Origin: Styela clava
Taxonomy: Eukaryota > Chordata > Ascidiacea > Stolidobranchia > Styelidae
NCBI RefSeq assembly: GCF_964204865.1
Contig: NC_135250.1
Coordinates: forward strand, 17,394,001-17,458,000
Reading direction: 5' to 3'
DNA length: 64,000 nt
In this document: positions 4,797 through 63,372 of the stretch, in pieces
Numbering within the stretch: the stretch's first letter is position 1
Layout of the letters: the number at the start of each line of letters is the position of its first letter
Notes under the pieces: model-generated
Told to the model about the DNA's origin: nothing
Databases searched by the model: none
What the model saw: only the letters and a program-made list of their open reading frames with translations
Made by a program: the position numbers and the translations under genes

Positions 4797-5865
4797 ATGT
4801 ATATTTCTACATTTTTTGCTTTTTCCATTGTTTGTCTCGCTGTGGGAGTTTCGTCGGATTGTTTCAAATTGCCTGGATGTACAGACGGAGTGACACATCA
4901 AATATATGAGAATGGTTACAGGTGGAAACCAAGAGGGCATCCATGTTACAGCTGCAAATGCTACCAATCGAGGCAATACGTGGTGAGTTGAAAGTAATTT
5001 GAAAAAAATTGTACTGCGCAGTCCTTCTTTATCTTTTCCTGGGATTGGAATGATTTCCTTTAAGCGCTTTCTTATGTCAGGCAGTCCTAATTAATCTATC
5101 TAAATCTTATGAATTCACTTTAGAACTATAGAACATTTGCTCCTATCACATACAACTACATTTTAAATTTGGAAAATAATAATAGATTAGTTTGTCTTTT
5201 AATCTCTCAAAGCCTAGGATAACCTACCTGATTTTACCTCGTTAATACTGTATTGTAGAAATTTTTGTTTGTTTTATTCAGCTTGGTTGTCAAGTCATTG
5301 CAGATAAAGTGAAAGTAAAAAAATCCGAATATTCGGCTGCTTTTGGACAAATATCATTCCTTCCTGCTGAAGAGGTCGAAATTCGGGAAGAAGAAATTGC
5401 CAATATTACATGCGAAACCTTACCATTGCCCGCTTATGATCCAGTAACTCAAGAACTGGAATCAATAACTTATCAAAACGTATATTATTTCTACACTTAC
5501 AAAAGAACACACTGCTGTAGTAGGTAAGCTTGTTTTAAATATTTATTTTTCAATCGCGATATATACAATGATGATCAAATGGTAAGTTTTTCTCGCAATT
5601 TCATGAAAAAAATTATCGATTTTCAAATTTGACGTGGCAGCCCTGACATTGAACATGGGATTCAGTTAAAATGTGTTTTGATTATGGCTTATTGTGTATA
5701 TGTTTAATGTCTGACTTCATCCATGTTATTTCCAGATTTGATTCATATGATAATCTTCATCCGTCATGTATGGCTGTGCCTGTAGGAGAATGCAAGACCA
5801 GAATTGTTCAAAGAGGCGATCCTAATAAACTCTGTGAAGAGCCCTACAACGTGTTAGGAAAGTGA
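4797..5865 (+). CDS. Secreted beta-microseminoprotein-like protein, gene A1
   Basis: Coding exons are 4797-4982, 5282-5523 and 5736-5865, giving 185 residues. Donors are GTGAGT and GTAAGC, acceptors TTATTCAG and TTTCCAG; intron phases are 0 and 2. Residues 1-20 are a hydrophobic signal peptide ending before D-C-F. Exon 1 then has G-Y-R-W and P-C-Y-S-C-K-C. Exon 2 has L-G-C, I-T-C-E, T-Y-Q-N-V-Y-Y-F and ends H-C-C-S-R. Exon 3 has P-S-C, G-E-C and N-K-L-C. The twelve cysteines match the array, ten of them in PSP94-family order. It is the most divergent member: the central core reads Y-D-P-V-T rather than Y-N-W-x-T. The start was chosen at 4797, in front of the signal peptide; an in-frame ATG at 4764 would precede it. 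Unlike its relatives it has no intron directly before the ATG, but a TTTTTAG acceptor ends at 4747. A polyadenylation signal AATAAA follows at about 5872. Family assignment is by cysteine pattern; function is unknown. Confidence 0.85.
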
Positions 5866-7277
5866 ACCAATAATAAAAACACTGTATAAAATATTGCTTT
5901 TTACATCGATACGGTTCTTTCAGAAAGTTTTTAAAACTTCCACTACATTTTAAATAATTTCCTCGTTTGTTCCTGTTTTTATTTTTTCGATTGTTAGCCT
6001 CGTTTTGACTTTTGATAAAATTCATTTTCTTAATTATAATTTTGCTATTGATATTTTAGATTCATTTAATTAACTTCTCATTGTATATATGTTAAATTTT
6101 GAAGAATAAATTATATAAAATGACTATTCATTGGTGAAACTATCCAAATGACCAAATGATTTCTTAGCTAACTGCTGTACTTGCGAAATGGCATATGCTA
6201 GAAATGCCATCGGGGGACGTGTGGGCTACTACAAATTTATTTTACTGTAGCCATACTGTAGCCTATATCATGTGGCCAACGAGTCAACCAACAAATGGTT
6301 GACCTTAAAATGGTTTATTACAAGTATAGGTTTCGACTCCATAAGCAGTACAAGTATAAATTTCGACTCCATAATCAGCATAGCATGATTGATAAAAACA
6401 AATGAATAAAAACTGATTATAGAATAAACAAAAAGCAAAGAAAACCTTGAGTAAGTTTACAGAATTTGAGTTGAAAGGTTCTGCCAAAAAGAAGTGATAT
6501 GTGTTCACTCACCTAAAAGTATTAAATTAAATCGAACAATGTGACACGCACAACCACAGTATATAAAAAAGTAAGAAAATCACGAGAACCTTCAAGATAA
6601 GTCACATAGTGAGCAAGCAAAAGGAAAGAAAGAAATGAAATCTATTGCCACACCAAGATATTAACTTTATAACAGTTGCCAAATTGAGAATCTATTTTGA
6701 AAACAAGAGTGAATTGTATAGGGAAAAATTTATTGAACACGATGTGTACATATATATACAGATTGTTTTGTTGGACACGAAAAGCTGCGTCAAAAACTGT
6801 CCCGCTTGGTGGATAAATCTGTCTCAATGTTCCCGCCACACCAGGCGTTCCTAGAAGATCCAAGTTTTCGCTGTATTTTTTTTTTTATTGGAACACGATT
6901 TTTAATCCCCCAAGCGTGACAGCTGTCTTGCGTTTTGATTTTGCAAAATCTTGCTTCGCGAAAGTCGGACGTTGTTCGGTGACCCACTGTACACCTGGTA
7001 CGGTAGGCTAAGTTACCCTAACAGGTTGATTACTTTCAATTACTTGATACCACAGTTGTGAGTCGAATCATAAAGCATTTTAATTCACGTAGGCACAAGA
7101 CGCCTAAATTTTCATTGGTACGGGACCTGGTAAAAGTAGGGACGTCCGGGTACCGACGATGTTAAATTACGATGGTTCATAGTTCCACCTTCGTCCAAGA
7201 TATTTTTTTTTTGGAAATTGTGAGTAAAATATATCGTTTTAGTCTTCGTGTCCGTATATTATAGCATTGCTCTCTTG

Positions 7278-7547
7278 TTAAAAAGATATCGCCAAGCTGA
7301 TTATAGTTGGTGTCAAATTATAATTTTCCAACCGAAGTTGCCAGAGTTGGTGCATACATGTTATAATCCTATTTAAACCATGACTAACGGGAATAAAACA
7401 TTTTCTTGCTTTTGATACGCCTGTTTTTTGTTGTAATTTTGATAATGAATATATTTTGATTTTTCTGGGATGTTTGCTCTGGATAATTAAATTAAAACCA
7501 GTCTCAACTCTAGTAATCGATTTCCAATTTACAACGTTTAAAATCAA
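7278..7547 (-). other. Unrecognised 89-residue open frame, doubtful
   Basis: An open frame starting M-I-L-N-V-V-N-W-K-S. The inverted copy at 14863-15132 is also open and almost identical, but the copy-2 equivalent near 12120-12390 is broken by small indels. Since all copies arose by recent duplication, conservation is no evidence for coding. I recognise no domain, signal peptide or splice context. Confidence 0.15.
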
Positions 7548-7822
7548 ATATTTTTATCAATCAGTTAATATGAAGGGATATTAAATACGTGGTATTTTTT
7601 TTATGCTTGAGGCTTTGACTGAATGAAGCATTTGGTGCTATAATTTAAGCATAATTGTCAGTAGCCCTTTTATTAGGATACGTAATATTTTCAACAACTG
7701 GAGCGAGGCAATAAATTTTAAAAAAAGTAGGCAGAAATACCTATACCTACCTATAACATTTACAGATAACCCTGGGTTCATAACAGAAGAAAATATCAGC
7801 TAAATACAATAATTCACATAAA

Positions 7823-8124
7823 ATGAGTTCAATCCGTGTGCATTCTGATCACATTCATTTCATATTTATGGAGGGGAAGAAACCCTACTTCGTTTATACT
7901 CCAATGAAGCAACAAATTACGACAGACGGACTATTTACAAAGATTTAGTGACATATTTGACAAGAAAGATCAGCGTGCAAGATCAATTCTTCACTAGGTC
8001 AGGCCAGTACAATATCGTAATTTCAAGAAAACGACGGGGCAATAATTTGCCGGTATTCGTTCTTGGAAGTAAAGCAGGTGATCCAAGGTTCGAGCAATAC
8101 AAATACTTCCACAATTCATTTTAA
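7823..8124 (+). pseudogene. Unrecognised small ORF with a frame break
   Basis: Reading starts at ATG 7823 (M-S-S-I-R-V-H-S-D-H) and runs about 35 codons; the reading then has to shift near 7922-7926 to stay open, and continues through a basic stretch (S-R-K-R-R-G-N-N) to TAA at 8122-8124. The same frame break is present in the copies at 12667-12967 (plus) and 14286-14587 (minus), so it predates the duplication. The residue composition looks protein-like but I do not recognise the family. It could be a relic of a mobile element, or two short ORFs. Confidence 0.3.
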
Positions 8125-8302
8125 ACTATATCTATTTACGGATGAGTGGAATTACTAAAGCGCCGAATTCAAAACCTAAAAACCACTCCAATAGATAAAT
8201 TCCACATCAATTTAAGATAAGCTGTAGAAAATTTTATTACTTACATGAAATGAAAGGAGGATTGCCAACTTACGCACATCGATTTTATGGCAAAATCCCA
8301 CA

Positions 8303-8572
8303 CTATTTAAAATAAATATCTATTTTCATGAAATAAAAATGCTGGGTTTTGTTTGCTGGTGTTTTGAATTTAAATTTAGAAAATGTTTTCTTTTCTTCCA
8401 GTGTTACAATAAATTCTTCATTGTTTGTTGAATAGAATATCGTGTTACAATTAAAGTTTAGCCTCTCGTCGCCGATCAAGCAATGACTATAATATGGTAA
8501 CGATGTTTTCACATTGAACTCATAATTCCCCACGAGAACAAAAGAGCAATTATCGTCGTCATTGTGGAACAA
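8303..8572 (-). other. Unrecognised 89-residue ORF, copy 1
   Basis: The open frame begins M-F-H-N-D-D-D-N-C-S-F and contains F-Y-S-T-N-N-E-E-F-I-V-T-L-E-E. It is kept in copy 2 at 13147-13416 with two substitutions, and its C-terminal half recurs, inverted, at about 9112-9246 and 13956-14090. No known domain is recognised. It lies at the inner end of the palindrome arm, converging with the frame-broken ORF at 7823-8124, which suggests that both belonged to one element. Coding status is unproven. Confidence 0.25.
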
Positions 8573-8934
8573 TACATGTATATGCTGAAGGAAATTTTTG
8601 ATTTTGGAGAATAAACACCGACGTAAAGATGTTAAGGTTTACAAAAACACGCCACACTGACGAAAACAGTCGGCGATTGTAATAAAATGCAATAGCGCAC
8701 GTTATTAGCGACCTTTTAAGTCGTTTAAAAATATCGAAAGGGACGAGATTCAACCCCTAATTTATTAATATGTTTGTCAAGTGTCAAATTTACAGCCTTT
8801 ATATATATAATTTATCGGTGAAATTTAGATTTATTTATGGCTTGTATTAACCCCATTAAAAAAGGTTCAGCTTATAAATTCGTAAAGTACCTTTAACTTA
8901 CTCAGGAATATTAATCGGTAAGTAACAATTTTAA

Positions 8935-9014
8935 AATTTATTTTGGGGCTCCGTGAAAAATAGTCAACCTCTTCACGGGCTCCGCAAGACCAAAAGTTTG
9001 AGAACCCCTGCTCT
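8935..9014. mobile_element. hAT-type transposon end fragment
   Basis: Read on the minus strand it starts CAGGGGTTCTCAAAC and continues with a GC-richer stretch; a TCTAGA lies next to it. This resembles the terminal repeats of Charlie-type hAT elements, whose target duplications often contain TCTAGA. The same end recurs at 13783-13858 and in the repeats at 57574-58020. Only one end is seen. Confidence 0.55.
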
Positions 9015-9644
9015 AGATGACCTCGTAGGCAATCAGACATGTGAAAAATGCTGTTTCGTGTGTTGAATATACGATTCTGAATGTGGATTCAATTAAAATC
9101 CCATTTCCCATAACTTTAATTGTAACACGGTATTCTATTCAACAAACAATGAAGAATTTATTGTAACACTGGAAGAAAAAACATTTTCTAAAATTAAATC
9201 CAAAACACCAGCAAACAAAACCCAGCATTTTTATTCAATGAAATAGATATTTATTTTAAATAGTGTGGAATTTTGCCATAAAATCGATGTGCGTATGTTG
9301 GCAACCCTCCTTTCATTTCATGTAAGTAATAAAATTTCCTACAGCTGATTAACCAAATAACAAGAGATATTTTAATTATTCTATTCGTTTATTTATTTAT
9401 TCCCTTATGTCGCATTGAATGTAATTTAAAATCAATTAGAACAAATTCATGAACGGCTACTAAATTACCGATTTTCGCCATTTCCGCGTAATTGTGACCG
9501 AGCGGATATTGAACTGTACTTTTAAACCCTACTTCAGCAACATCGGCTCTCCTTTTTGTTCTTACACATACCATATTATCCGCATTTGTTTTTAGTCTGC
9601 TCTTCCTGCTTTTGTATTTACTTTCCGTAATAAACTTGACCAAG

Positions 9645-10713
9645 ATGTATATTTCTACATTTTTTGCTTTTTCCATTGTTTGTCTCGCTGTGGGAGTTTC
9701 GTCGGATTGTTTCAAATTGCCTGGATGTACAGACGGAGTGACACATCAAATATATGAGAATGGTTACAGGTGGAAACCAAGAGGGCATCCATGTTACAGC
9801 TGCAAATGCTACCAATCGAGGCAATACGTGGTGAGTTGAAAGTAATTTGAAAAAAATTGTACTGCGCAGTCCTTCTTTATCTTTTCCTGGGATTGGAATG
9901 ATTTCCTTTAAGCGCTTTCTTATGTCAGGCAGTCCTAATTAATCTATCTAAATCTTATGAATTCACTTTAGAACTATAGAACATTTGCTCCTATCACATA
10001 CAACTACATTTTAAATTTGGAAAATAATAATAGATTAGTTTGTCTTTTAATCTCTCAAAGCCTAGGATAACCTACCTGATTTTACCTCGTTAATACTGTA
10101 TTGTAGAAATTTTTGTTTGTTTTATTCAGCTTGGTTGTCAAGTCATTGCAGATAAAGTGAAAGTAAAAAAATCCGAATATTCGGCTGCTTTTGGACAAAT
10201 ATCATTCCTTCCTGCTGAAGAGGTCGAAATTCGGGAAGAAGAAATTGTCAATATTACATGCGAAACCTTACCATTGCCCGCTTATGATCCAGTAACTCAA
10301 GAACTGGAATCAATAACTTATCAAAACGTATATTATTTCTACACTTACAAAAGAACACACTGCTGTAGTAGGTAAGCTTGTTTTAAATATTTATTTTTCA
10401 ATCGCGATATATACAATGATGATCAAATGGTAAGTTTTTCTCGCAATTTTATGAAAAAAATTATCGATTTCCAAATTTGACGTGGCAGCCCTGACATTGA
10501 ACATGGGATTCAGTTAAAATGTGTTTTGATTATGGCTTATTGTGTATATGTTTAATGTCTGACTTCATCCATGTTATTTCCAGATTTGATTCATATGATA
10601 ATCTTCATCCGTCATGTATGGCTGTGCCTGTAGGAGAATGCAAGACCAGAATTGTTCAAAGAGGCGATCCTAATAAACTCTGTGAAGAGCCCTACAACGT
10701 GTTAGGAAAGTGA
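9645..10713 (+). CDS. Secreted beta-microseminoprotein-like protein, gene A2
   Basis: Coding exons are 9645-9830, 10130-10371 and 10584-10713, giving 185 residues. All splice sites and intron lengths equal those of A1, and the only residue difference I find is Ala to Val in exon 2, in the stretch E-E-I-V-N-I-T-C. Signal peptide, G-Y-R-W, C-Y-S-C-K-C, H-C-C-S-R and the exon-3 cysteines are intact, so both copies can be functional. The 5' flank is also duplicated back to 9345, so the two genes may share the same proximal control region. Its exon 3 lies at the outer end of the palindrome: the distal part of the exon is repeated, inverted, at 16498-16558. Confidence 0.85.
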
Positions 10714-13302
10714 ACCAATAATAAAAACACTGTATAAAATATTGCTTTTTACATCGATACGGTTCTTTCAGAAAGTTTTTAAAACTTCCACTACATTTTA
10801 AATAATTTCCTCGTTTGTTCCTGTTTTTATTTTTTCGATTGTTAGCCTCGTTTTGACTTTTGATAAAATTCATTTTCTTAATTATAATTTTGCTATTGAT
10901 ATTTTAGATTCATTTAATTAACTTCTCATTGTATATATGTTAAATTTTGAAGAATAAATTATATAAAATGACTATTCATTGGTGAAACTATCCAAATGAC
11001 CAAATGATTTCTTAGCTAACTGCTGTACTTGCGAAATGGCATATGCTAGAAATGCCATCGGGGGACGTGTGGGCTACTACAAATTTATTTTACTGTAGCC
11101 ATACTGTAGCCTATATCATGTGGCCAACGAGTCAACCAACAAATGGTTGACCTTAAAATGGTTTATTACAAGTATAGGTTTCGACTCCATAAGCAGTACA
11201 AGTATAAATTTCGACTCCATAATCAGCATAGCATGATTGATAAAAACAAATGAATAAAAACTGATTATAGAATAAACAAAAAGCAAAGAAAACCTTGAGT
11301 AAGTTTACAGAATTTGAGTTGAAAGGTTCTGCCAAAAAGAAGTGATATGTGTTCACTCACCTAAAAGTATTAAATTAAATCGAACAATGTGACACGCACA
11401 ACCACAGTATATAAAAAAGTAAGAAAATCACGAGAACCTTCAAGATAAGTCACATAGTGAGCAAGCAAAAGGAAAGAAAGAAATGAAAACTATTGCCACA
11501 CCAAGATATTAACTTTATAACAGTTGCCAAATTGAGAATCTATTTTGAAAACAAGAGTGAATTGTATAGGGAAAAATTTATTGAACACGATGTGTACATA
11601 TATATGGATTGTTTTGTTGGACACGAAAAGCTGCGTCAAAAACTGTCCCGCTTGGTGGATAAATCTGTCTCAATGTTCCCGCCACACCAGGCGTTCCTAG
11701 AAGATCCAAGTTTTCGCTGTATTTTTTTTTTTTTTATTGGAACACGATTTTTAATCCCCCAAGCGTGACAGCTGTCTTGCGTTTTGATTTTGCAAAATCT
11801 TGCTTCGCGAAAGTCGGACGTTGTTCGGTGACCCACTGTACACCTGGTACGGTAGGCTAAGTTACCCTAACAGGTTGATTACTTTCAATTACTTGATACC
11901 ACAGTTGTGAGTCGAATCATAAAGCATTTTAATTCACGTAGGCACAAGACGCCTAAATTTTCATTGGTACGGGACCTGGTAAAAGTAGGGACGTCCGGGT
12001 ACCGACGATGTTAAATTACGATGGTTCATAGTTCCACCTTCGTCCAAGATATTTTTTTTTTGGAAATTGTGAGTAAAATATATCGTTTTAGTCTTCGTGT
12101 CCGTATATTATAGCATTGCTCTCTTGTTAAAAAGATATCGCCAAGCTGATTATAGTTGGTGTCAAATTATAATTTTCCAACCGAAGTTGCCAGAGTTGGT
12201 GCATGCGTGTTATAATCCTATTTAAACTATGACTAACGGGAATAAAACATTTTCTTGCTTTTGATACGCCTGTTTTTTGTTGTAATTTTGATAATAAATA
12301 TTTTGATTTTTCTGGGATGTTTGCTCTGGATAATTAATTTAAAACCAGTCTCAACTCTAGTAATCGATTTTCAATTTACAACGTTTAAAATCGAATATTT
12401 TTATCAATCAGTTAATATGAAGGGATATTAAATACGTGGTATTTTTATGCTTGTGGCTTTGACTGAATGAAGCATTTGGTGCTATAATTTAAGCATAATT
12501 GTCAGTAGCCCTTTTATTAGGATACGTAATATTTTCAACAACTGGAGCGAGGCAATAAATTTTAAAAAAAGTAGGCAGAAATACCTATACCTACCTATAA
12601 CATTTACAGATAACCCTGGGTTCATAACAGAAGAAAATATCAGCTAAATACAATATTTCACATAAAATGAGTTCAATCCGTGTGCATTCTGATCACATTC
12701 ATTTCATATTTATGAAGGGTAAGAAACCCTACTTCGTTTATACTCCAAAGAAGCAACAAATTACGACAGACGGACTATTTACGAAGATTTAGAGACATAT
12801 TTGACAAGAAAGATCAGCGTGCAAGATCAATTCTTCACCAGGTCAAGCCAGTACAACATCGTGATTTCAAAAAAACGACGGGGCAATAATTTGCCGGTAT
12901 TCGTTCTTGGAAGTAAAGCAGGTGATCCAAGGTTCGAGCAATACAAATACTTCCACAATTCATTTTAAACTATATCTATTTACGGATGAGTGGAATTACT
13001 AAAGCGCCGAATTCAAAACCTGAAAACCACTCCAATAGATAAATTCCACATCAATTTAAGATAAGCTGTAGAAAATTTTATTACTTACATGAAATGAAAG
13101 GAGGATTGCCAACTTACGCACATCGATTTTATGGCAAAATCCCACACTATTTAAAATAAATATCTATTTTCATGAAATAAAAATGCTGGGTTTTGTTTGC
13201 TGGTGTTTTGGATTTAATTTTAGAAAATGTTTTCTTTTCTTCCAGTGTTACAATAAATTCTTCATTGTTTGTTGAATAGAATATCGTGTTACAATTAAAG
13301 TT
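10653..13302. repeat. Left arm of large palindrome
   Basis: Pairs with 13956-16558 in inverted orientation, separated by a spacer of about 650 bp. The arm runs from within A2 exon 3 to inside the 89-residue ORF at 13147-13416. Base differences are scattered, with several small indels and one gap of about 60 bp in the right arm near 15210. Confidence 0.9.
12667..12967 (+). pseudogene. Frame-broken small ORF, copy 2
   Basis: Counterpart of 7823-8124 with the same frame break after about 35 codons plus several private substitutions. Unrecognised product. Confidence 0.3.
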
Positions 13303-13416
13303 TAGCCTCTCGTCGCCGATCAAGCAATGACTATAATATGGTAACGATGTTTTCACATTGAACTCATAATTCCCCACGAGAACAAAAGAGCAATTATCGT
13401 CGTCATTGTGGAACAA
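13147..13416 (-). other. Unrecognised 89-residue ORF, copy 2
   Basis: Counterpart of the ORF at 8303-8572; the reading frame is kept and two residues change near F-S-K-I-K-S-K. No domain recognised; see copy 1. Confidence 0.25.
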
Positions 13417-13782
13417 TACATGTATATGCTGAAGGAAATTTTTGATTTTGGAGAATAAACACCGACGTAAAGATGTTAAGGTTTAAAAAAACGCGCCACA
13501 CTGACGAAAACAGTCGGCGATTGTAATAAAATGCAATAGCGCACGTTATTAGCGACCTTTTAAGTCGTTTAAAAATATCAAAAGGGACGAGATTCAACCC
13601 CTAATTTATTAATATGTTTGTCAAGTGTCAAATTTACAGCCTTTATATATATAATTTATCGGTGAAATTTAGATTTATTTATGGCTTGTATTAACCCCAT
13701 TAAAAAAGGTTTAGCTTATAAATTCGTAAAGTACCTTTAACTTACTCAGGAATATTAATCGGTAAGTAACAATTTTAAAATT

Positions 13783-13858
13783 TATTTTGGGGCTCCGTGA
13801 AAAATAGTCAACCTCTTCACGGGCTCCGCAAGACCAAAAGTTTGAGAACCCCTGCTCT
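13783..13858. mobile_element. hAT-type transposon end fragment, copy 2
   Basis: Duplicate of 8935-9014, located in the spacer between the palindrome arms, ending in GAGAACCCCTG next to CTCTAGAT. Confidence 0.55.
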
Positions 13859-14285
13859 AGATGACCTCGTAGGCAATCAGACATGTGAAAAATGCTGTTT
13901 CGTGTGTTGAATATACGATTCTGAATGTGGATTCAATTAAAATCCCATTTCCCATAACTTTAATTGTAACACGGTATTCTATTCAACAAACAATGAAGAA
14001 TTTATTGTAACACTGGAAGGAAAAACATTTTCTAAAATTAAATCCAAAACACCAGCAAACAAAACCCAGCATTTTTATTCAATGAAATAGATATTTATTT
14101 TAAATAGTGTGGAATTTTGCCATAAAATCGATGTGCGTATGTTGGCAACCCTCCTTTCATTTCATGTAAGTAATAAAATTTCCTACAGCTTATCTTAAAT
14201 TGATGTGGAATTTATCTATTGGAGTGGTTTTTAGGTTTTGAATTCGGCGCTTTAGTAATTCCACTCATCCGTAAATATATATAGT

Positions 14286-14587
14286 TTAAAATGAATTGTG
14301 GAAGTATTTGTATTGCTCGAACCTTGGATCACCTGCTTTACTTCCAAGAACGAATACCGGCAAATTATTGCCCCGTCGTTTTCTTGAAATTACGATATTG
14401 TACTGGCCTGACCTAGTGAAGAATTGATCTTGCACGCTGATCTTTCTTGTCAAATATGTCACTAAATCTTTGTAAATAGTCCGTCTGTCGTAATTTGTTG
14501 CTTCATTGGAGTATAAACGAAGTAGGGTTTCTTCCCCTCCATAAATATGAAATGAATGTGATCAGAATGCACACGGATTGAACTCAT
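14286..14587 (-). pseudogene. Frame-broken small ORF, inverted copy
   Basis: Inverted counterpart of 7823-8124, with the same frame break. At several diagnostic bases it agrees with copy 1 rather than with its palindrome partner in copy 2. Confidence 0.3.
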
Positions 14588-16497
14588 TTTATGTGAATTA
14601 TTGTATTTAGCTGATATTTTCTTCTGTTAGTAACCCAGGGTTATCTGTAAATGTTATAGGTAGGTATAGGTATTTCTGCCTACTTTTTTTTAAATTTATA
14701 GCCTCGCTCCAGTTGTTGAAAATATTACGTATCCTAATAAAAGGGCTACTGACAATTATGCTTAAATTATAGCACCAAATGCTTCATTCAGTCAAAGCCT
14801 CAAGCATAAAAAAAATACCACGTATTTAATATCCCTTCATATTAACTGATTGATAAAAATATTTGATTTTAAACGTTGTAAATTGGAAATCGATTACTAG
14901 AGTTGAGACTGGTTTTAATTTAATTATCCAGAGCAAACATCCCAGAAAAATCAAAATATATTCATTATCAAAATTACAACAAAAAACAGGCGTATCAAAA
15001 GCAAGAAAATGTTTTATTCCCGTTAGTCATGGTTTAAATAGGATTATAACATGTATGCACCAACTCTGGCAACTTCGGTTGGAAAATTATCATTTGACAC
15101 CAACTATAATCAGCTTGGCGATATCTTTTTAACAAGAGAGAAATGCTATAATATACGGACACGAAAACTAAAACAATATATTTTACCCACAATTTCCAAA
15201 AAAAAAAACGCCCTACTTTTACCAGGTCCCGTAACAATGAAAATTTAGGCGTCTTGTGCCTACGTGAATTAAAATGCTTTATGATTCGACTCACGACTGT
15301 GGTATCAAGTAATTTGAATTAATCAACCTGTTAGGGTAACTTAGCGTACCGTACCAGGTGTACAGTGCGTCACCGAACAACGTCCGACTTTCGCGAAGCA
15401 AGATTTTGCAAAATCAAAACGCAAGACAGATGTCACGCTTGGGGGATTAAAAATCGTGTTCCAATAAAAAAAAATAATAATACAGCGAAAACTTGGATCT
15501 TCTAGGAACGCCTGGTGTGGCGGGAACATGGAGACAGATTTATCCACCAAGCGGGACAGTTTTTGACGCAGCTTTTCGTGTCCAACAAACGATTCATATA
15601 TATGTACACATCGTGTTCAATAAAGTTTTCCCTATACAATTCACTCTTGTTTTTAAAATAGATTCTCAATTTGGCAACTGTTATAAAGTTGATATTCTGG
15701 TGTGGCAATTGTTTTCATTTCTTTCTTTCCTTTTGCTTGCTCACTATGTGACTTATCTTGAAGGTTCTCGTGATTTTCTTACTTTATTATATACTGTGGT
15801 TGTGTGTGTGACGTTGTTCGATTTAATTTAATACTTTTAGGTGAGTGAACACATACCATTCTTCTTGGCAGAACCTTTTCTGAACTCAAATTCTGTAAAC
15901 TTTAAATCTTACTCAAGGTTTTCTTTGCTTTTTTTTTTATTCTATAATCAGTTTTTATTCATTTGTTTTTATCAATCATGTTATGCTGATTATGAGTCGA
16001 AATTTATACCTGTACTGCTTATGGAGTCGAAACCTATACTTGTAATAAACCATTTTAAGGTCAACCATTTGTTGGTTGACTCGTTGGCCACATGATATAG
16101 GCTACAGTATGGCTACAGTAAAATGAATTTATAGTAGCCCACACGTCGCCCGATGTCATTTCTAGCATATGCCATTTCGCAAGTACAGCAGTTAGCTAAG
16201 AAATCATTTGGTCATTTGGATAGTTTCACCAATGAATAGTTATTTTATATAATTTATTCTTCAAAATTTGACATATATACAATGAGAAGTTAATTAAATG
16301 AATCTAAAATTTCAATAGCCAAATTTTAATTAGGAAAATGGATTTTATCAAAAGTCAAAACGAGGCTAACAATTGAAAAAATAAACACAGGAACAAACGA
16401 GGAAATTATTTGAAACGTAGTGGAAGTTTTAAAAACTTTCTGAAAGAACCGTATCGACGTAAAAAGCAATATTTTATACAGTGTTTTTATTATTGGT

Positions 16498-16558
16498 TCA
16501 CTTTCCTAACACGTTGTAGGGCTCTTCACAGAGTTCATTAGGATCGCCTCTTTGAACA
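16498..16558 (-). pseudogene. Gene A exon-3 fragment
   Basis: On the minus strand this reads the last 20 or so codons of A-type exon 3 (Q-R-G-D-P-N-E-L-C-E-E-P-Y-N) through the TGA stop, with one Lys-to-Glu change. Exons 1 and 2 and the start of exon 3 are missing because the palindrome arm stops here, so it is a dead fragment. Confidence 0.85.
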
Positions 16559-22378: not shown

Positions 22379-23168
22379 TCAACCGATAAGTGACATTGCC
22401 CTGTTGCATCTTTCGTTTGGGTTGTCTCTTCTTACAACGATGGATCTGCATTTGTTGATTTTGACGACTTTGCACGAAGGATGAACGTTTGTGAAATTCA
22501 TGAATCTGTTAAAGATTGTTATATAATAAATTTAAGTATTGGGCATTGTTTGCACAAGACGAATTTATTCGCATTCACTCTCTAGCCTAGCCAACTCAAA
22601 CATCTAAGTAATTCTCTGTATATAAGAATTATGAATACTAACCGGCTGCAACACCTCGATTTCTTCTCTGTGTAGTAATAGTAAACCATCTTATACGTGA
22701 TCGGTTCAAAAGTACCGGTAGCCCAGTTATAGATTGGTGCTCTAGTCGGAGAACATTCTTTTGTATTCGCTTCTTCTCTTGGTATTTCAATATCTTCATC
22801 TGGAGTATAAGTTACAGGAGATTCGAATCTTGCAGACATCTGGCTCTTTTTAACCGATAAGTTTGGTTTCTTATTAACGGCTTCAAGGCATGCCAGCTGT
22901 AAATTTAAAAACAAAATATTAATTCACATAACAAGCAGCGCAGAAACTAGCTTGAAACAAAAATCGAAATACGACTTACCACAAACTTCTTTGTTGATAT
23001 GCATTTACAAGTATAACATGAAACTGAATCTGGTCTCCATCTTTGCCCAACTTTATAAATTTTATCGTTCCCGTGTGAATTTGAGCAACCAGCTTCTTGA
23101 TAGCAGTCCGCGGCAACGTATACAATTATACAAACAATTATACTGGCAATTGAAATTGATGATTTCAT
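22379..23168 (-). CDS. Secreted beta-microseminoprotein-like protein, gene B
   Basis: Coding exons on the minus strand are 23168-22980, 22896-22643 and 22505-22379, giving 189 residues. Donors are GTAAGT and GTTAGT, acceptors TTTACAG and TTAACAG; phases 0 and 2. Residues 1-20 are the signal peptide, ahead of A-D-C-Y-Q-E-A-G-C. Then come V-G-Q-R-W-R-P and C-Y-T-C-K-C (exon 1), L-A-C-L-E-A, K-E-C-S-P, Y-N-W-A-T-G-T-F-E-P and S-R-C-C-S-R (exon 2), and P-S-C-K-V-V, N-K-C-R-S-I and N-E-R-C (exon 3). An acceptor TTATTCTAG abuts the ATG, so the 5' UTR is spliced; its exon ends at 23249 with donor GTATGT. It is the only complete member on the minus strand, head-to-head with gene C. Closest in sequence to C. 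Confidence 0.93.
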
Positions 23169-23248
23169 CTAGAATAAATAAAAGGTAAAGTATACGGAAC
23201 AAGGCGGAAAAATTTCAAAATATTAAATAAAAAGGCAACCAAACATAC

Positions 23249-26860: not shown

Positions 26861-27746
26861 ATGAATTCCTGTATTATGATTTCACTGTTTGTTGCTACTG
26901 CCATTGTTTGTGTAAGTGCAGATTGCTACAGAGAAGATGGTTGCTCAAACACAAATGATAAAGAGTTCAGAATCGGAAAAAGATGGAAGCCAAAGTCCAA
27001 TCCTTGTTATACTTGCAAATGTATAAAAACAAAGAAGTTTGTGGTAACTCATATACTTTATATGGAGCAATCTCTTACTGCTTTTGACATGATTGTAACA
27101 TTTCTTTTATATTTTTCAGCTGGCATGTCTTGAAGCTGTGAATAAAAAACGGAATCTATCAGTTAAAAAAAGTCAATTGTCTGCAAGATTTGAATTCCCT
27201 GTAAATTTTGCTCCAGATGAGGATATTGAAATAACGGAGAAAGAAGCAAAAACAAAAGAATGTTCTCCGACTCGAGCACCAATCTATAACTGGGCTGTCG
27301 GTACTTTTGAACCGATCACGTATAAGATGGTTTACTTTTACTACAAAAGAAAGGAATCAAGATGTTGCAGTCGGTTAGTATTTACTATCTTAGGTTTTAT
27401 GTACAATGAATATTTAGGGGCCTTTCTGTCGGCCCCCCGATGAAACTTAAAACAACGGGAGAATTTTCAACTCAATCCTCATATTTAGCTATGTATTTAT
27501 ATTTCACATATCTTCAAACAATGATATATTATTTAAAAAAAAATTCAAATACAGATTACATCAGAAATAATGTGTTTCATACAATTTTGTTATTCTCATC
27601 TTTAATTTTATATTCACAGATTCATGAATTTTACAAATGTCCATCTTTCATGTAAAGTTGTCAGAATCAGCAAATGCAGATCAATAGTTGTGAAAAGGGA
27701 AAATCCAAAAGAAAGATGTAACAAACCGATGTCGTTTACTGGTTGA
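26861..27746 (+). CDS. Secreted beta-microseminoprotein-like protein, gene C
   Basis: Coding exons are 26861-27043, 27120-27373 and 27620-27746, giving 187 residues. Donors GTAACT and GTTAGT; acceptors TTTTTCAG and ATTCACAG. Intron 1 is only 76 bp. Residues 1-20 form the signal peptide, followed by D-C-Y-R-E-D-G-C, I-G-K-R-W-K-P and C-Y-T-C-K-C. Exon 2 gives L-A-C-L-E-A, K-E-C-S-P, Y-N-W-A-V-G-T-F-E-P and S-R-C-C-S-R; exon 3 gives L-S-C-K-V-V, S-K-C-R-S-I and P-K-E-R-C. All twelve cysteines are present. It is the source, or sister, of the pseudogene at 33.4 kb, with which it shares upstream and downstream sequence. Confidence 0.93.
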
Positions 27747-33423: not shown

Positions 33424-33912
33424 AATGAAATATTCAAACACAAAAATAAAAAATATAGAATTACACAAACACGGAAGCCGGTGTCGAATCCTTATTCTAT
33501 TGGCAAAAAGTTAAAAAAAATATATTAATTTTTAACGTCATGCAGTAATATTTATTAGTTTATCAATTAAAAAAACAAGTCTGTAAGATTCGAATCACCA
33601 GTAAATTATACTCCAGGTGAAACTATCAAAATATTAAAAAAGAAAATAAAAAACTCAGACTTGACTCGAACCTCAGATTACAACTGGTCCTTTATACCGA
33701 TTACCGATCGTAACGACATGTTTGAGATGGTTATGTTGTGATGAACATTGAAAGAATAGATAGTAATAATTCAGGAGTGAATTTTATTTTTGATTTTCAC
33801 TTAACAGATTAATGTATTTCACCAACGTGCATTCTCCGTGTTGAGTTATAAAAATCAGCAAATCAGCAAGTGTAGATCAATAGTTGTAAAAACAGAAAAC
33901 CTATAAAAAATG
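33424..33912 (+). pseudogene. Decayed beta-microseminoprotein-like gene
   Basis: Remnants align in order with gene C. Exon 1 (33424-33510) keeps the region from the asparagine-threonine stretch to the cysteine motif but has lost ATG and signal peptide. Exon 2 (33560-33735) keeps the S-V-K-K start, the T-P-G-E region and the Y-N-W-like site, with deletions. Exon 3 (33808-33912) keeps an acceptor TTAACAG and F-T-N-V-H-S-P-C, then meets an in-frame TGA and later indels. The intron-1 equivalent of the 5' UTR and its donor are recognisable upstream, but no promoter is. It cannot encode the protein. Confidence 0.85.
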
Positions 33913-36290: not shown

Positions 36291-36294
36291 AAGG

Positions 36295-36474: not shown

Positions 36475-37460
36475 ATGCATTTACATATTGCAACAATATT
36501 CTTGGTAGCATGTACGATTTCATGCATCACTGCTGACTGTTACATAGACAATGGTTGTCCAAATACAAAAACGAAGAAAAAAGAATATAGAATCGGGCAA
36601 AGATGGAGACCAAACTCAGATCCATGTTATACATGTAAATGTGTAAAATCAAAAGAATATGTGGTGAGTTATATTTATAAAGATTGAATATGTTACTTAT
36701 CAATGAAACGATATAACGGATTTTTTTATTTAATATTTTACAGTTAGCATGCCTTGAAGCCATAAATCAGAAACCGAAACTGTCGTTTAAAAAAAGTGAA
36801 TTGATTGCAACTTTTGAATCAACGATAAGATACGCTGCGGATGAAGAAATGGAAATAAATGAAAGAGAAGTTAAAACGAAACAATGCAGTCCAATTCGAG
36901 CACCAGTCTACAACTTGTCTACCAGCAAGTTTGAATCAATTACATACAAAACAGTTTATTATTTCTACACAAGAAAAGAATCAAGATGTTGCAGTCGGTT
37001 AGTGCTATTCGTATATTTAAGATAACGACCATGTTGATTATTGTACACTATACTTCCTCTTCTGACAACTCCATGAAACAAGGTACTTGCCACAAAGCGA
37101 AGCTGCTGAATTTGGTAAGCATACAATGATAATGAATTCAATAATATAATATTAGCCTATAGCCCAATATCCCATTCGGTATACCCATCCTTTAGTTGTA
37201 GTAAATGTAAATCAGCGTATTGTAACCTATACATTAGCCTTATTGAAAATAACAAATACGCCAGGATATATCCGTTACGGATATCACATAGTGTAAATAT
37301 TCCTTATTGTCATTGTTTCCTTAATTTTTTCAGATTTTCGTATTTCACTAACGTTCACGCGTCCTGTAAAGTCGTTAAAATCGGCAGGTGTAGGTCAAAA
37401 CTTGTCAAAAAGGAAAATCCAAAAGAAAGATGCAACATGCCAATGGCATTGATTGGCTGA
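36475..37460 (+). CDS. Secreted beta-microseminoprotein-like protein, gene D
   Basis: Coding exons are 36475-36663, 36744-36997 and 37334-37460, giving 189 residues. Donors GTGAGT and GTTAGT; acceptors TTTTACAG and TTTTTTCAG; phases 0 and 2. Signal peptide residues 1-20 precede D-C-Y-I-D-N-G-C. Exon 1 continues with I-G-Q-R-W-R-P and C-Y-T-C-K-C. Exon 2 has L-A-C-L-E-A, K-Q-C-S-P and S-R-C-C-S-R; its core reads Y-N-L-S-T-S-K-F-E-S, so the otherwise near-constant tryptophan and T-G-T are replaced. Exon 3 has A-S-C-K-V-V, G-R-C-R-S-K and P-K-E-R-C. Twelve cysteines are present. Directly downstream is a 298-bp tandem repeat. Confidence 0.93.
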
Positions 37461-37476
37461 AGCGATTCTTGATTTT

Positions 37477-38072
37477 CAATCACCATCAACTACCAAATTC
37501 AACGAGGCAATATACATTTAGCTGTCATAATCACTGCCAGAATCTTCGTATTATTTCATGTCTAATAACAAATTACTGGTGAATGTGTCTTATGTTCCAA
37601 GAAAAGTGGACAAAAATGTTGACACTTTTTCATCTGTCGGGCATGTTTTCGCACGCAATAAGTATATTTCTATATCTTTTCAAGTTAATGCAACAGTGCT
37701 ATTCTTTGTTCTTCTTTATTATTTTGTGTTACTATTATAGCCTGTTTTTTTTTGGTTTGGTGTTTAGGTAGGATCAATCACCATCAACTACCAAATTCAA
37801 CGAGGCAATATACATTTAGCTGTCATAATCACTGCCAGAATCTTCGTATTATTTCATGTCTAATAACAAATTACTGGTGAATGTGTCTTATGTTCCAAGA
37901 AAAGTGGACAAAAATGTTGACACTTTTTCATCTGTCGGGCATGTTTTCGCACGCAATAAGTATATTTCTATATCTTTTCAAGTTAATGCAACAGTGCTAT
38001 TCTTTGTTCTTCTTTATTATTTTGTGTTACTATTATAGCCTGTTTTTTTTTGGTTTGGTGTTTAGGTAGGCC
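37477..38072. repeat. 298-bp tandem duplication 3' of gene D
   Basis: Units 37477-37774 and 37775-38072 appear identical, beginning TCAATCACCATCAACTACC. The unit starts about 16 bp after the gene D stop, so one copy is the native 3' UTR and the other is an added block. Open frames repeated in both units are by-products. Confidence 0.9.
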
Positions 38073-40063: not shown

Positions 40064-41267
40064 ATGAATTCTGCATTTTTAATCGTTTTGATCATTGCAT
40101 GTTGTATTGGATGCGTCGTTTCTGTTTGTTATCGGGAAGTAGGATGTGTAAACACGAGGAAAAAATATAGAGATTATAAAATCGGACAAAGATGGAAATC
40201 ATCATCGGATCCATGTTATTCTTGCAAATGTATTAAAAGAAAGAAATTCGCGGTAAGGGCTTAGTTTTTATTGCGTATACATGATAATATGAACACAGTA
40301 GCATAAAGTTTAAAATATTGTATTATGTATAATATGTTTCCATGTCAATGTAGTTAGTGTTCGCTACAATATTTTAATTTATGCACTACGAATGCGGATT
40401 GTTCAAAAACGTTTTCTTATTAATTTTGCAGATGGCATGTCTCGAGCCTGTGAATAAACGAACGGAATTATCAGTCAGAAAAAGTTTATTCACTGGACGA
40501 TTTGAATCATCCGTAAACTACAATTTATCTGAAGACAGAAGAATTTCCGAACTTGAAACAATGGAATGCCCACCAACGCCAATACCAGTCTACAATTGGA
40601 CAACTGGAACGTTTGAACCAACCAAGATAGTTTATTACTACTATATCAGAAAAGTATCGAGATGTTGTAGTAGGTCAGTTACTTTATTGAACTAACAATT
40701 TTGAATTTTTTAATAAAAAGTGTTAACAAAGGTTGAAAAATAAGAAAAGTGGGGTGTATATGTTTCAACGAATAAACAGTTTTTTTATGGGCTATACATA
40801 TTTTGTTATACGAAACAAATATAATAAAGATTTTGGACCTCCTAAAGTATGCGCACCAAGATGGCGCACAACCTGAACTCAGGTTGTGCACCAGGTTAGG
40901 GTTCAGGTTATGCGACATCTTGGTGCGCATACTTCAAGAGTACCAAGATTTTTTTATGAGATAAGTAACGCCAAAATTTTTGATCCTTTAAAGTTTATAG
41001 TCTAAATAATGCAGTTTATGTGAGTGCGTTTTATACGCGACTTGCATCTAGTATTCAAAATTCGATGCTATTCTTATCTGAACTAGACTATTCAAAATTA
41101 ATCGAAACAATGATACTGCTTGGAACTAAAAATGTTTATATATTTATAGGTTTACCAAGTTTTCCTACGTGCACCCTTCATGCAAGGTTGTTAAAATCAG
41201 CAGATGCCAATCGAAAGCGGTAATGAAGAATAATCCGCGTAAAATATGCGGCAAGAGGATGTCTTGA
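40064..41267 (+). CDS. Secreted beta-microseminoprotein-like protein, gene E
   Basis: Coding exons are 40064-40252, 40432-40673 and 41150-41267, giving 182 residues, the shortest member. Donors GTAAGG and GTCAGT; acceptors TTTTGCAG and ATTTATAG; phases 0 and 2. The signal peptide precedes V-C-Y-R-E-V-G-C. Exon 1 has I-G-Q-R-W-K-S and C-Y-S-C-K-C and ends in Phe-Ala, where the others have Val. Exon 2 is four codons shorter than in B-D, with M-A-C-L-E-P, M-E-C-P-P, Y-N-W-T-T-G-T-F-E-P and S-R-C-C-S-R. Exon 3 has P-S-C-K-V-V and S-R-C-Q-S-K and stops three codons early at R-M-S. Twelve cysteines remain. The acceptor CACAG abuts the ATG. Confidence 0.92.
40835..40944. mobile_element. Small MITE, 110 bp, with 8-bp target duplication
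   Basis: Inverted arms contain AGTATGCGCACCAAGATG and its reverse complement. The flanks are a perfect 8-bp repeat AAGATTTT (40827-40834 and 40945-40952). The 8-bp duplication suggests hAT-type mobilisation. It inserted into intron 2 of gene E without touching the splice sites. Same family as 580-690. Confidence 0.88.
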
Positions 41268-49700: not shown

Positions 49701-49710
49701 CGTGTAAAAC

Positions 49711-49825: not shown

Positions 49826-49902
49826 GTTCGTACTTAGATTTTTGCGACTGAGCCAACGTTTTTTTACATTAAAAATATTAAAAGTTGAATTTTACTTTAC
49901 AG

Positions 49903-51080
49903 ATGCACTCTGTTCTTTCTACCGCATTAATTGTTGGAGTTTTGATCGGTTACGTTGCTGCAGCATGCTACAGAGAAGTCGGCTGTTCAAGCACATGGGG
50001 AAAAGGAAGAACTTACAGAATTGGACAAAGGTGGAAACCAAAATCGGACCCATGCTACGTCTGCAAGTGTGTGAAAGCAAAGAAAATTGTGGTAAGGAGA
50101 AAAGTATGAATATACAGCCCCATTTTAGTTGTGTCGTTTTGATATGTACCAATTAGGAAAGCGCAAATTTGACAACGGCTGGTAAAACTTCATAATTTAC
50201 TTTCAATCAATACATGAACAAAAACATTATTTAATCTTGGGAATATCTTAAGAAACGTTTGTTTGTCAATTGCTAATATTTAAGTTGTTTCTCTACAGCT
50301 AAAGTGTCAAGTTGCAATTGACGAACATCCAAAAACTGTCAAAAAGAGCCTATTATCTGCACGTTTTGAATCCATGTCCGTGAATGCCAAAAACGAAGAT
50401 ATAAAAATTACAAGAAAAGAAGCAAAAACCATAGAATGTCCTCCAATTCGTGCGCCGATCTACAACTGGGCTACTGGTACTTTTGAACCAATCACATACA
50501 AGAATGTCTACTATTATTACATACGAAGAGTGTCAAGTTGCTGTAGCAGGTTAGCATTTTTTTGTATAAAATGTTTGTAAAATAGTTTCCCCATTACCTA
50601 TATGTTAGGTATATACCAAAAACATATGTTATTGAGATACCAAGAGTGTTCTGAAGCTTTTTCGCATAATAATGTTTGTACTTCGGGCTGTACAAAATAG
50701 CTCAGGATCATTGGTGCTTTTAAGATGAGGCGCTTGGTAGTTTTACTTTTATTTTTATTTACAACTCAGTGATATTGCTTCTGAATTTAGCATGTGTATG
50801 TCAATGTAACATAACATTTATAAAATATGGTTCCAGATGGGAATTGTATACAAATTAATCAAAGTGTTATTAAAATCTTACGCCAGATCTTACGATACAA
50901 TGTGGTCAAATTCAAAAATGTAGTTGGGAATAACTTATTCCTATATTTTTCAGGTTTATCGGCTACACAAGTGTCCACCCAGCCTGTAAAGTCGTCAAAA
51001 TCAGCAAGTGCAGATCAAAAGCTGTCAGAAAAGATAATCCACAAGAAAGATGCAATCTTTCCATGCGCTACGTCGGGTGA
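49903..51080 (+). CDS. Secreted beta-microseminoprotein-like protein, gene F
   Basis: Coding exons are 49903-50091, 50299-50549 and 50954-51080, giving 188 residues. Donors GTAAGG and GTTAGC; acceptors TCTCTACAG and TTTTTCAG; phases 0 and 2. The signal peptide precedes A-C-Y-R-E-V-G-C. Exon 1 has I-G-Q-R-W-K-P and C-Y-V-C-K-C. Exon 2 has L-K-C-Q-V-A, I-E-C-P-P, Y-N-W-A-T-G-T-F-E-P and S-S-C-C-S-R. Exon 3 has P-A-C-K-V-V, S-K-C-R-S-K and P-Q-E-R-C. The L-K-C-Q-V-A start of exon 2 resembles G (L-E-C-Q-V-A) and A (L-G-C-Q-V-I) rather than B-E (x-A-C-L-E), hinting at two subfamilies. A possible polyadenylation signal AATAAA is at 51313. Confidence 0.93.
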
Positions 51081-57031: not shown

Positions 57032-57573
57032 GGCCATAATGGACCCATAGTGACGAGGAAATCCGCTTTCAAAAAAGAGCAAAGTGGAGCGGATAGCCTA
57101 CACTCTTGACATGGACATTACCACTGGCCAATGTTTTGCCAATTTCTTATTTTGGATCAAATTTTTTCGGTAGATGGCATGAGTGAGCGATAACTGTTAT
57201 CTTTTTGAAAACATCTTTGAAAGATTATCTGGGGAACTCGCGTGGTACAGGATGTCGACTTTTCACGTTTATTGGACACGGAATTGACCTATGGACCGCT
57301 CTGTTATTATGTTGTTGTTGTGAAAAAATTGCTCTTCTCTTTAACTGCTGAACCAATTGTCTTGACGTTTTCAGTGGTTAAAGCTTGTTGTTGTTGCTAT
57401 TAATTCTAAAACAGCTGTGGGCTCCATGAGATACGTTTTTCAGTTCGAAAAAAAAAATGTGATGCGTAGTTCATTCTCAATTTTCTACGCACTGTACGTC
57501 AAGTATTGAATTACAGATAAGAATATTACGTGTTCCAAAATGTATGCTACTAATGATTAGTGATTGAGATTTA

Positions 57574-58020
57574 CATTTAAATTTGAATCAGAAAATATAG
57601 ACAATTGATTTAACTTTAAATGTCCAACCCAGATTCGTGTTAAGTGGCAAATAGATAGAATCATGGATATTTCCTTCTAGAACAGGGGTTCTCAAACTTT
57701 TGGTGTTGCGGAGCCCTTGAAAAGGTTGACTATTTAATTTTACATTTAAATTTGAATCAGAAAATATAGACAATTAATTTAACTTTAAATGTCCAACCCA
57801 GATTCGTGTTAAGTGGCAAATAGATAGAATCATGGATATTTTCTTCTAGAACAGGGGTTCTCAAACTTTTGGTGTTGCGGAGCCCTTGAAAAGGTTGACT
57901 ATTTAATTTTACATTTAAATTTGAATCAGAAAATATAGACAATTAATTTAACTTTAAATGTCCAACCCAGATTCGTGTTAAGTGGCAAATAGATAGAATC
58001 ATGGATATTTTCTTCTAGAA
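57574..58020. repeat. 169-bp tandem repeat, ~2.6 copies, with hAT ends
   Basis: Units start near 57574, 57743 and 57912; the third is cut off after about 110 bp, at a doubled TCTAGAA. The first two each contain the hAT-type end CAGGGGTTCTCAAACTTTTGG preceded by TTCTAGAA, matching the fragment at 8935-9014 in inverse orientation. The copies differ at only a few bases. Confidence 0.88.
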
Positions 58021-60850: not shown

Positions 60851-60884
60851 TCGAAAATTCTGTATTGAAAAGCTTTAGTAACAC

Positions 60885-61560: not shown

Positions 61561-62099
61561 TTCTTATTAACTTAAAATGATATCTTAAATAAGGTATTTA
61601 CATCCTTGTTAATTCTAAACTGAAATAATTCCGTGATCATAACAAAATTTGTGTTTACAACGATACTGACAAACATGAATTTCTGCAAAATCTATCTTTT
61701 TCCCAAGCATTGACGTCAATGCAGGTCTAAGCATATACATTTGAGAACAGTAATGGTTTTACATTAGACTGCATAAATACAGTTGACAGATAGCAATGGC
61801 ACAAATTTAAAGTTTTATTTAAATACCGCATTTAGATTAGATGGATACGTGAGAAAATTATTTCAATGAAATTGCGTTTAAACAGCAATTTCTCCCATTC
61901 AATTTTGATACCACCAGTGTCTCGCGCCCTGTGAATGTCTATATGTATGATTACTATTTCTGGCTCTTCCTAGATTTTCGCAGAGATTTCTCCATATCGA
62001 TGCAAACGAGAGAATTTTTCGCGCTGGCGTGATGCAGTAATCTCTCGTATTTTATACAAATCTCCGTGAGTGATCAAAATAGACCTGACAGAAATTGCA

Positions 62100-62222
62100 T
62101 ATAAATGCGTGTTGCATCCATCAGTCCTCACTCTTAACGCTGAAATCGACGAAGCCAAGTAAAAGTAAGGACAACTAAGTTTCTAATCCACACGACAACG
62201 AGGAAACGCCAACATTTTCAAG
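62100..62222 (+). promoter_or_regulatory. Gene G TATA box and first exon
   Basis: TATAAAT at 62100-62106 precedes a first exon ending at 62222 with donor GTATGC. It pairs with the acceptor AATTCAG at 62406, abutting the ATG. Confidence 0.72.
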
Positions 62223-62406
62223 GTATGCAAGTTTAATATATATACTTTGTATTTTAAGTTGTACATAACTACTGCATTTGCTGAATTATTATAGCAATGT
62301 ACTAGTACATAATTTTTAACAATACGTCTACATTATTATTATTATTACATTATTATAAGTGACAATTATTGACATTCTATTAATCTTCGTGTATCTCTTA
62401 ATTCAG

Positions 62407-63372
62407 ATGACTAACGGATTAACAATCACCGCCTGCATTGTATGTTTAATCGTATGTGTAACTGCTGATTGCTTCAGAGAAATTGGATGCTCTCGCAAGG
62501 GTAAAGAATTTGAAATAGGAAAAAGATGGCGATCAAGAGAACATCAATGTCATAGCTGCAAGTGCGTGGAAGCCAAGAAATATGTGGTAGGTTCCAATAT
62601 CTTTGAATAGAAAGAACGTACTCTTTTTTTAGACTTTTTTTACATGACACTATATTAATATATATAATTTCTGATTCAAATCCTAAACTTGTTTCATTTT
62701 ATACAGCTGGAATGTCAAGTTGCCATCGAGAAGAAAATTAAAGATTCTGTGAAGAAAAGTAAATTATCGGCGCACTTTGACACTTCGATCCAGTATGCAG
62801 AAGATGAAGATGTTAAAATTACGGAAAAAGAAGCAAAAGACAAAAAATGTCCCCCTACCAAAGCACCGACATATAACTGGGCTACCGGTACTTTCGACCC
62901 CATCACATACAAGACAGTATATTATTACTACAAAAGAAAAGAATCCAGATGTTGCAGCCGGTTAGTATTTTTTCAGACATTATTTCAGCTTGAGAATAAT
63001 AACCACCATAGATACCTAACTAATTATCTACTAACATGCCTACTTTTCAAAAAAGGTGAAATCCCACTGTGCGCCTAAACATTACGAATCCGATTTTAGA
63101 AATATTCCTCGATATTCACAACGAGAATAGTATTTTATGTAGCACATTATAGAGCAAGGTAGCAAGCTATATTGTGTTTCCATTAGTCTCAACAGAGTTA
63201 CAAATAACACGACTAAATTTTAATGAATGTTTGTTTACGTTACAGTTCCGTTCATTTTACCAACATTCATCCTTCGTGTAAAGTTGTCAAGGTCAACAAA
63301 TGCAGATCAAAAGTTGTAAAAAAATCGAATCCAAATGAAAGATGCTTCATGTCGATGTCTTTCAAAGGCTGA
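62407..63372 (+). CDS. Secreted beta-microseminoprotein-like protein, gene G
   Basis: Coding exons are 62407-62586, 62707-62960 and 63246-63372, giving 186 residues. Donors GTAGGT and GTTAGT; acceptors TTATACAG and GTTACAG; phases 0 and 2. The signal peptide precedes D-C-F-R-E-I-G-C. Exon 1 is three codons shorter than in most members, with I-G-K-R-W-R-S and C-H-S-C-K-C. Exon 2 has L-E-C-Q-V-A, K-K-C-P-P, Y-N-W-A-T-G-T-F-D-P and S-R-C-C-S-R. Exon 3 has P-S-C-K-V-V, N-K-C-R-S-K and P-N-E-R-C, but its first codons read S-V-H-F-T-N, so the phenylalanine normally following the C-C-S-R arginine is lost. Twelve cysteines are present. AATAAA at about 63799 is a distant candidate polyadenylation signal. 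Confidence 0.93.

Follow-up and report, generated by a model that had tools for sequence, protein, structure and literature searches.

Eight genes in a Styela clava gene array probably encode an amplified and internally enlarged PSP94/beta-microseminoprotein family

The window analysed here, a stretch of 64,000 nucleotides from the tunicate Styela clava (contig NC_135250.1, hereafter C1; C1:17394001-17458000), carries eight genes, G1 to G8, which probably encode a secreted family of the PSP94/beta-microseminoprotein (MSMB) type amplified by local duplication. Human semen contains abundant PSP94, a protein that has been linked to the risk of prostate cancer. We read the tunicate proteins as a diverged, tunicate-amplified branch of PSP94/MSMB, a kinship that had been proposed in a first-pass annotation of this DNA and that survives in part: a profile match obtained once a long insert is cut out, the collinear placement of the protein parts and a shared intron position support it, while a hidden Markov model (HMM) search with the full-length proteins and the cut-off of the Pfam family PF05825 do not. 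The gene models rest on exons located by tblastn, with splice sites then read from the sequence, and are as follows.

G1: 4797..5865, plus strand; exons 4797-4982, 5282-5523 and 5736-5865; 185 amino acids (aa)
G2: 9645..10713, plus strand; exons 9645-9830, 10130-10371 and 10584-10713; 185 aa; one coding nucleotide, and one residue, different from G1
G3: 22379..23168, minus strand; exons 23168-22980, 22896-22643 and 22505-22379; 189 aa
G4: 26861..27746, plus strand; exons 26861-27043, 27120-27373 and 27620-27746; 187 aa
G5: 36475..37460, plus strand; exons 36475-36663, 36744-36997 and 37334-37460; 189 aa
G6: 40064..41267, plus strand; exons 40064-40252, 40432-40673 and 41150-41267; 182 aa; its stop codon precedes that of its siblings by a few codons
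G7: 49903..51080, plus strand; exons 49903-50091, 50299-50549 and 50954-51080; 188 aa
G8: 62407..63372, plus strand; exons 62407-62586, 62707-62960 and 63246-63372; 186 aa

All eight intact genes that the first-pass annotation had placed at 4797-63372 were recovered, seven on the plus strand and one (G3) on the minus strand, and these outer coordinates coincide exactly with the start codon of G1 and the stop codon of G8. Its description of three coding exons, separated by introns of phase 0 and then phase 2, holds for 8/8 window genes with GT-AG introns throughout, and the encoded proteins measure 182-189 aa. Exactly twelve cysteines are invariant in the eight window proteins, as had been counted before, and all of them lie within the mature chain; the total per protein ranges from 12 to 15, the variable cysteines being confined to the first 17 residues, which belong to a hydrophobic leader. 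The cysteines follow the order C-x5-C, C-x2-C-x-C, two extra single cysteines, C-C and then C, C and C, and if the two located in the stretch from C-x-C to C-C are disregarded, the remaining ten fit the PSP94 pattern in all 17 genes read, that is, in the window genes and in nine outside genes described below. The reported G-x-x-W site ahead of C-x2-C is an invariant G-x-R-W in the window genes, and its tryptophan is also present in human PSP94, which however reads N-S-E-W and lacks the glycine.

The window genes differ from PSP94 by an insert: 84-88 residues separate C-x-C from C-C, compared with six in human PSP94. This insert bears the two extra cysteines at fixed places, and the protein sequence is otherwise variable. 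Assuming a leader of 20 residues, the mature window proteins comprise 162-169 residues, in contrast to PSP94 as a compact single unit of approximately 94 residues. The earlier statement that the family is almost doubled is therefore apt for its length but not as a doubling, since a single insert is involved. We considered whether the extra length arose because the PSP94 unit was duplicated within the protein, and rejected this: the profile of exon 2 matches neither exon 1, exon 3 nor PSP94, and the insert is therefore not a doubled unit.

It is because of this insert that the full-length proteins miss the PSP94 models. For comparison, the insert was cut out so that C-x-C and C-C were six residues apart, the spacing of PSP94, in seven distinct window proteins (G2 being omitted as a near-copy of G1) and the nine outside proteins, 16 in total. 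PF05825 was the best family for 14 of these 16 insert-cut proteins, including 7/7 from the window (16.8-21.5 bits) and 7/9 from outside (12-20.6 bits). However, three control shuffles in which the cysteines were held in place and the other columns or residues were shuffled (Cys-kept shuffles) yielded 18.7 bits, 13.1 bits and no match with PF05825; one of them thus falls inside the range of the real window proteins, so that the Pfam scores alone reflect mostly cysteine spacing, which counts against them as evidence of kinship, and a stricter profile-versus-profile test was therefore applied. This test (hhalign) used a PSP94 profile made from the human and pig chains and a partial chicken chain. 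Against it, the insert-cut profile of all 16 proteins scored 40.3, compared with a mean of 18.3 and a maximum of 28.8 in 100 Cys-kept column shuffles, and its alignment spans positions 18-88 of the 94 residues of PSP94. The seven window proteins alone scored 38.1 (60 shuffles, mean 17.9, maximum 26.8) and the nine outside proteins alone 42.3 (shuffle maximum 33.3). Left unjoined, the C-terminal part scored 20.6 (probability 22.8%), a value reached by none of 100 shuffles, the highest of which gave 19.5, and the N- and C-terminal parts each align at the correct, collinear places of PSP94, though individually weakly. In pairwise comparison, the match of the C-terminal 50 residues to the C-terminal half of human PSP94 was reached by only 0-4/500 Cys-kept shuffles. 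For the insert-cut proteins, similarity to PSP94 hence extends beyond the spacing of the cysteines.

Intron positions provide a second line of evidence. The donor of the second intron is in phase 2 and follows C-C plus one residue in 17/17 genes. In MSMB, the start codon forms the final three bases of exon 1, placing an intron just past the ATG (PMC3268785), and exons 2 and 3 of the marmoset gene measure 106 bp each (PMC2746217 Table 4). Computed from these exon lengths (3 coding + 106 + 106 nt), intron 3 of MSMB lies in phase 2 after 71 codons. Given the 20-residue signal peptide of PSP94, this corresponds to a position after C49-C50-T51 followed by a split codon, and the second intron of the tunicate genes is, by this computation, at the same codon and in the same phase. 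Moreover, an AG stands immediately before the ATG in 8/8 window genes, six of them with a pyrimidine tract that is good by eye, as well as in 3/9 outside genes, and two more outside genes have an acceptor ahead of an exon without a start codon. An AG, often with a pyrimidine tract, right before the ATG therefore points to a putative intron at this codon, offset by three bases from that of MSMB. At the outside genes X3 and X4, a search further upstream for an exon that ends in ATG and has a strict donor gave none.

Several observations weigh against a kinship with PSP94. The HMM search that had been recommended as a check did not bear it out, as PF05825 was matched by 0/8 full-length proteins, and the only full-length match in Pfam was a sub-threshold one to VWC in a single protein (E 0.049). 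A search of NCBIfam returned nothing beyond a chance-level match (E 0.56), and the full-length profile found no PSP94 chain among solved structures, its top match being a chance-level one to integrin beta-3 (E 0.19). Compared directly with PSP94, the full-length profile reached a probability of 15.7% with only the N-terminal part aligned. Even among the insert-cut proteins, 0/16 exceed the PF05825 cut-off of 22 bits, the best reaching 21.5 bits; X4 and X6 do not list PF05825 at all, and two others match with E 0.17 and 0.34. The unjoined N-terminal part scored 19.9, which was reached by 4/100 shuffles (probability 21.3%), the probabilities of single-part profiles are low in general (20-43%), and the matches of whole mature chains to human PSP94 were equalled by 11-35/500 Cys-kept shuffles. 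The six-residue spacing at the insert cut, being copied from PSP94, itself favours a match. A search for PF05825 across the whole genome gave no match, but as its 14 controls went unmatched too, it has no bearing on the kinship. As to gene structure, 4/9 outside genes lack an acceptor next to the start codon. The first intron, which is in phase 0 and lies past C-x-C where the insert begins, is without an MSMB counterpart, and intron 2 of MSMB is absent, the first two cysteines being encoded by a single exon.

These weaknesses leave room for two other explanations of the cysteine pattern. The N-terminal half could be a VWC or fibronectin-type-I-like module, the W...C-x2-C-x-C...C-C pattern of which is shared with PSP94 and would account for the resemblance. 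VWC is indeed the sole full-length Pfam match, the nine insert-cut outside proteins include weak matches to fn1 (E 0.017), FnI_RECK (E 0.066) and VWC2L (E 0.0058), each in one protein, and the structure search returned one sub-threshold fibronectin chain (E 0.82). However, the scores are weaker than those for PSP94: among the seven insert-cut window proteins PSP94 is best in all, VWC being listed in five and always lower, and the best VWC score (PF00093) is 15.9 bits for a cut-off of 27.6 bits. The VWC match is not evidence against PSP94 either, because human PSP94 itself matches VWC weakly (E 0.0083). Furthermore, the C-terminal C-x7-C-x13-C part of the tunicate proteins resembles PSP94 beyond the cysteines, and VWC is not known to have such a part, so that we consider a VWC-type origin unlikely. 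An independent origin, in which a cysteine-rich family restricted to tunicates arrived at the PSP94-like order by itself, appears quite unlikely. It would agree with the failure of the full-length profile to find a PSP94 chain, with the fact that allowing a gap of 85 residues makes ten cysteines easy to align, and with the shuffle that equalled the real proteins with PF05825. It is difficult to combine with a profile score that exceeds the Cys-kept shuffles, with an intron position and phase common with MSMB, and with the MSMB homologues previously reported from Ciona, likewise a tunicate (PMC3268785).

If the PSP94 kinship holds, the tunicate proteins would retain both domains of PSP94, the N-terminal Greek key and the C-terminal one, together with its five known disulfides. 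In PSP94 these connect residues 2-50, 18-42, 40-49 and 64-87, the bridge 37-73 completing the set. The insert would then enlarge the turn joining the C-x-C strand to the C-C strand, and a sixth disulfide, formed between the insert's own two cysteines, may hold the insert. More tentatively, the proteins might act as extracellular binding proteins with a disulfide-fixed frame and a surface that varies among the copies; mucosal, reproductive or wound secretions would be their most likely site, and a CRISP-type protein could be the first candidate for a partner.

The family is not restricted to the window. Protein searches of the genome (376.6 Mb, 379 contigs), the counts of which are lower bounds, led to at least nine further genes that were read on C1 and on two other contigs, C3 and C14.

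C1, near 6.25, 15.02, 15.67, 15.85, 16.397, 16.404 and 16.443 Mb: outside genes
C3, near 7.79 Mb, and C14, near 7.04 Mb: outside genes
C1:16458796-16458948, minus strand: further exon-2-like candidate (E 9.9e-4)

A weak match on C3 near 3.03 Mb was also inspected in its sequence and is unlike a family member. In the outside genes the donor of the second intron is in phase 2 in 9/9, and the first intron is in phase 0 in eight, X8 being left out. In an alignment of all 17 proteins, for which the exon junctions of X4 and X8 were placed by eye, the twelve cysteines are the sole invariant columns. The tree of the family is poorly resolved, with 2/14 inner branches well supported, seven open and four branches long, and the window genes do not form one group in it.

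Within the window, the array also contains duplicated, partial and decayed copies that were absent from the first-pass annotation.

4497..14190, plus strand: direct tandem duplication of two units of approximately 4.85 kb each, 99.1% identical, with one gene (G1 or G2) per unit
13956..16558, minus strand: third, partial and inverted copy of the G1/G2 unit, 95-98% identical
16504..16557, minus strand: exon-3 fragment of 18 codons inside this inverted partial copy
33445..33900, plus strand: decayed copy with remnants of three exons, several cysteines gone and frames broken

Together, the duplicated G1/G2 units and the partial and decayed copies indicate that genes of the window array are born and lost through local duplication. 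The single coding difference between G1 and G2 is a replacement, with a synonymous divergence (dS) of 0. G3 and G4 are 73% identical and show the lowest nonsynonymous divergence (dN) among the 21 pairs of distinct window genes (dN/dS values 0.16/0.91, compared with 0.24/1.32 for G4 and G5). Over the whole coding sequence, dN is below dS in 13/13 estimable pairs, 8/21 being saturated, and G1 to G8 therefore look like maintained genes. The splice phases kept in 17 genes and dN < dS in 13 of the 21 pairs also rule out chance open reading frames. With regard to positive selection, the 13 estimable whole-coding-sequence comparisons gave no signal, and dN exceeded dS only in the leader of two pairs, G5-G6 and G6-G8.

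Other features of the window are few. Scans with Rfam and for tRNAs gave no match, and none of ten further frames scanned exceeded a Pfam cut-off. A frame at 56352-56747 on the minus strand has a weak, sub-cut-off match to a Spin-doc zinc finger (PF18658, E 1.8e-4) and looks like a transposon-derived gene piece, presumably resembling GTF2IRD2-type elements. Immediately left of the window, the minus strand of C1 contains frames of 164-208 residues, which we take to be ZMYM1/hAT-type transposase-like. A 298-bp sequence is present in two 100% identical copies at 37476-38070, beginning 16 bp past the stop codon of G5, and points either to tandem duplication in the very recent past or to an effect of the assembly; a tandem repeat with a period of 169 bp (2.7 copies, 99% matches) lies at 57570-58020. 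Elsewhere in the genome, a cellulose synthase was seen near 16.177 Mb of contig C9 (23.8 Mb). It is spread over several open frames, as though interrupted by introns, and one of these frames matches solved bacterial cellulose synthases. A glycosyl hydrolase 6 (GH6) domain follows approximately 2 kb downstream (region C9:16170000-16187400). No animals other than tunicates are known to make cellulose, and the CesA proteins of Phallusia likewise have a GT2 plus GH6 layout (PMC10986139); the cellulose synthase with its GH6 domain thus identifies the genome as that of a tunicate. COX1 was looked for in the assembly and not found.

The role of the proteins can be approached by analogy. The same family might work in gut or body-wall repair and defence instead of in reproduction, a role already proposed for a sea cucumber array and one that we regard here as possible though doubtful. 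In this sea cucumber, Apostichopus japonicus, 11 tandem PSP94-like genes are induced by a factor of over 10,000 in the early period following evisceration and are active in the regenerating intestine (PMC5638244), and a clam haemocyte transcript named beta-microseminoprotein is given at -3.03, a decrease, after Vibrio infection (PMC4234419). On the reproductive side, a PSP94-type gene of starfish is most expressed in the testis (PMC9759900) and an MSMB-like protein of squid egg capsules triggers male aggression (PMC3268785). In a sea snail, a microseminoprotein-like gene is up in abnormally maturing animals (PMC10036341). A far bolder proposal, which we consider highly improbable, is that the insert is a new disulfide-tied module turning PSP94 into a two-part recognition protein in tunicates, with the copies acting as secreted ligands of CRISP-type proteins such as Urabin in gamete or self/non-self recognition. 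Vertebrate MSMB binds CRISPs. Ascidian sperm bear the CRISP Urabin, which binds the egg-coat HrVC70 or CiVC57 (PMC9265791, the accessible part of which does not mention microseminoprotein). Because MSMB binds CRISPs and ascidian sperm carry one, Urabin would be the first partner candidate.

In comparison with known systems, the window genes share with MSMB/PSP94 the ten cysteines in order with a W ahead of C-x2-C-x-C, a C...C-x13-C pattern at the C-terminus together with a V-x-[KR]-x-[DN]-P run, the phase-2 intron after C-C-x, the probable intron near the start codon, and an amplification of copy number as seen in some lineages; they differ by the 84-88-residue insert with two more cysteines, by a phase-0 intron ahead of it, by the lack of one between the first two cysteines, and by scores below the PF05825 cut-off. 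The tandem cysteine-rich genes of A. japonicus, for which the authors, in the accessible text, found no homologues elsewhere, were likewise assigned to PSP94 on cysteine topology, but they belong to another phylum and were compared here by description, not sequence (PMC5638244). In the opossum, MSMB has 14 neighbouring copies, and in the account of the opossum and tammar paralogues MSMB1 is reported to be longer in exon 3, which holds the stretch from C-x-C to C-C, whereas a split of this exon is not reported in the accessible part of the source (PMC3268785). Amplification is thus not new in kind, as PSP94-like arrays and amplified MSMB genes are known from sea cucumber and opossum. The new part is probably the insert, likely tied by its own disulfide, together with its own intron; among the matches listed in a search of the open-licence literature, none described an enlarged PSP94 family in tunicates.

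For the study of the family, the present proteins illustrate that family HMMs can miss PSP94 relatives bearing an internal insert, since at full length they match no PSP94 model. A tunicate whose many PSP94-like copies have a module built in would show how the frame of PSP94 can be enlarged, and with tunicates being close to vertebrates, Styela clava would be an animal in which to ask where PSP94-like proteins are made and what they bind.

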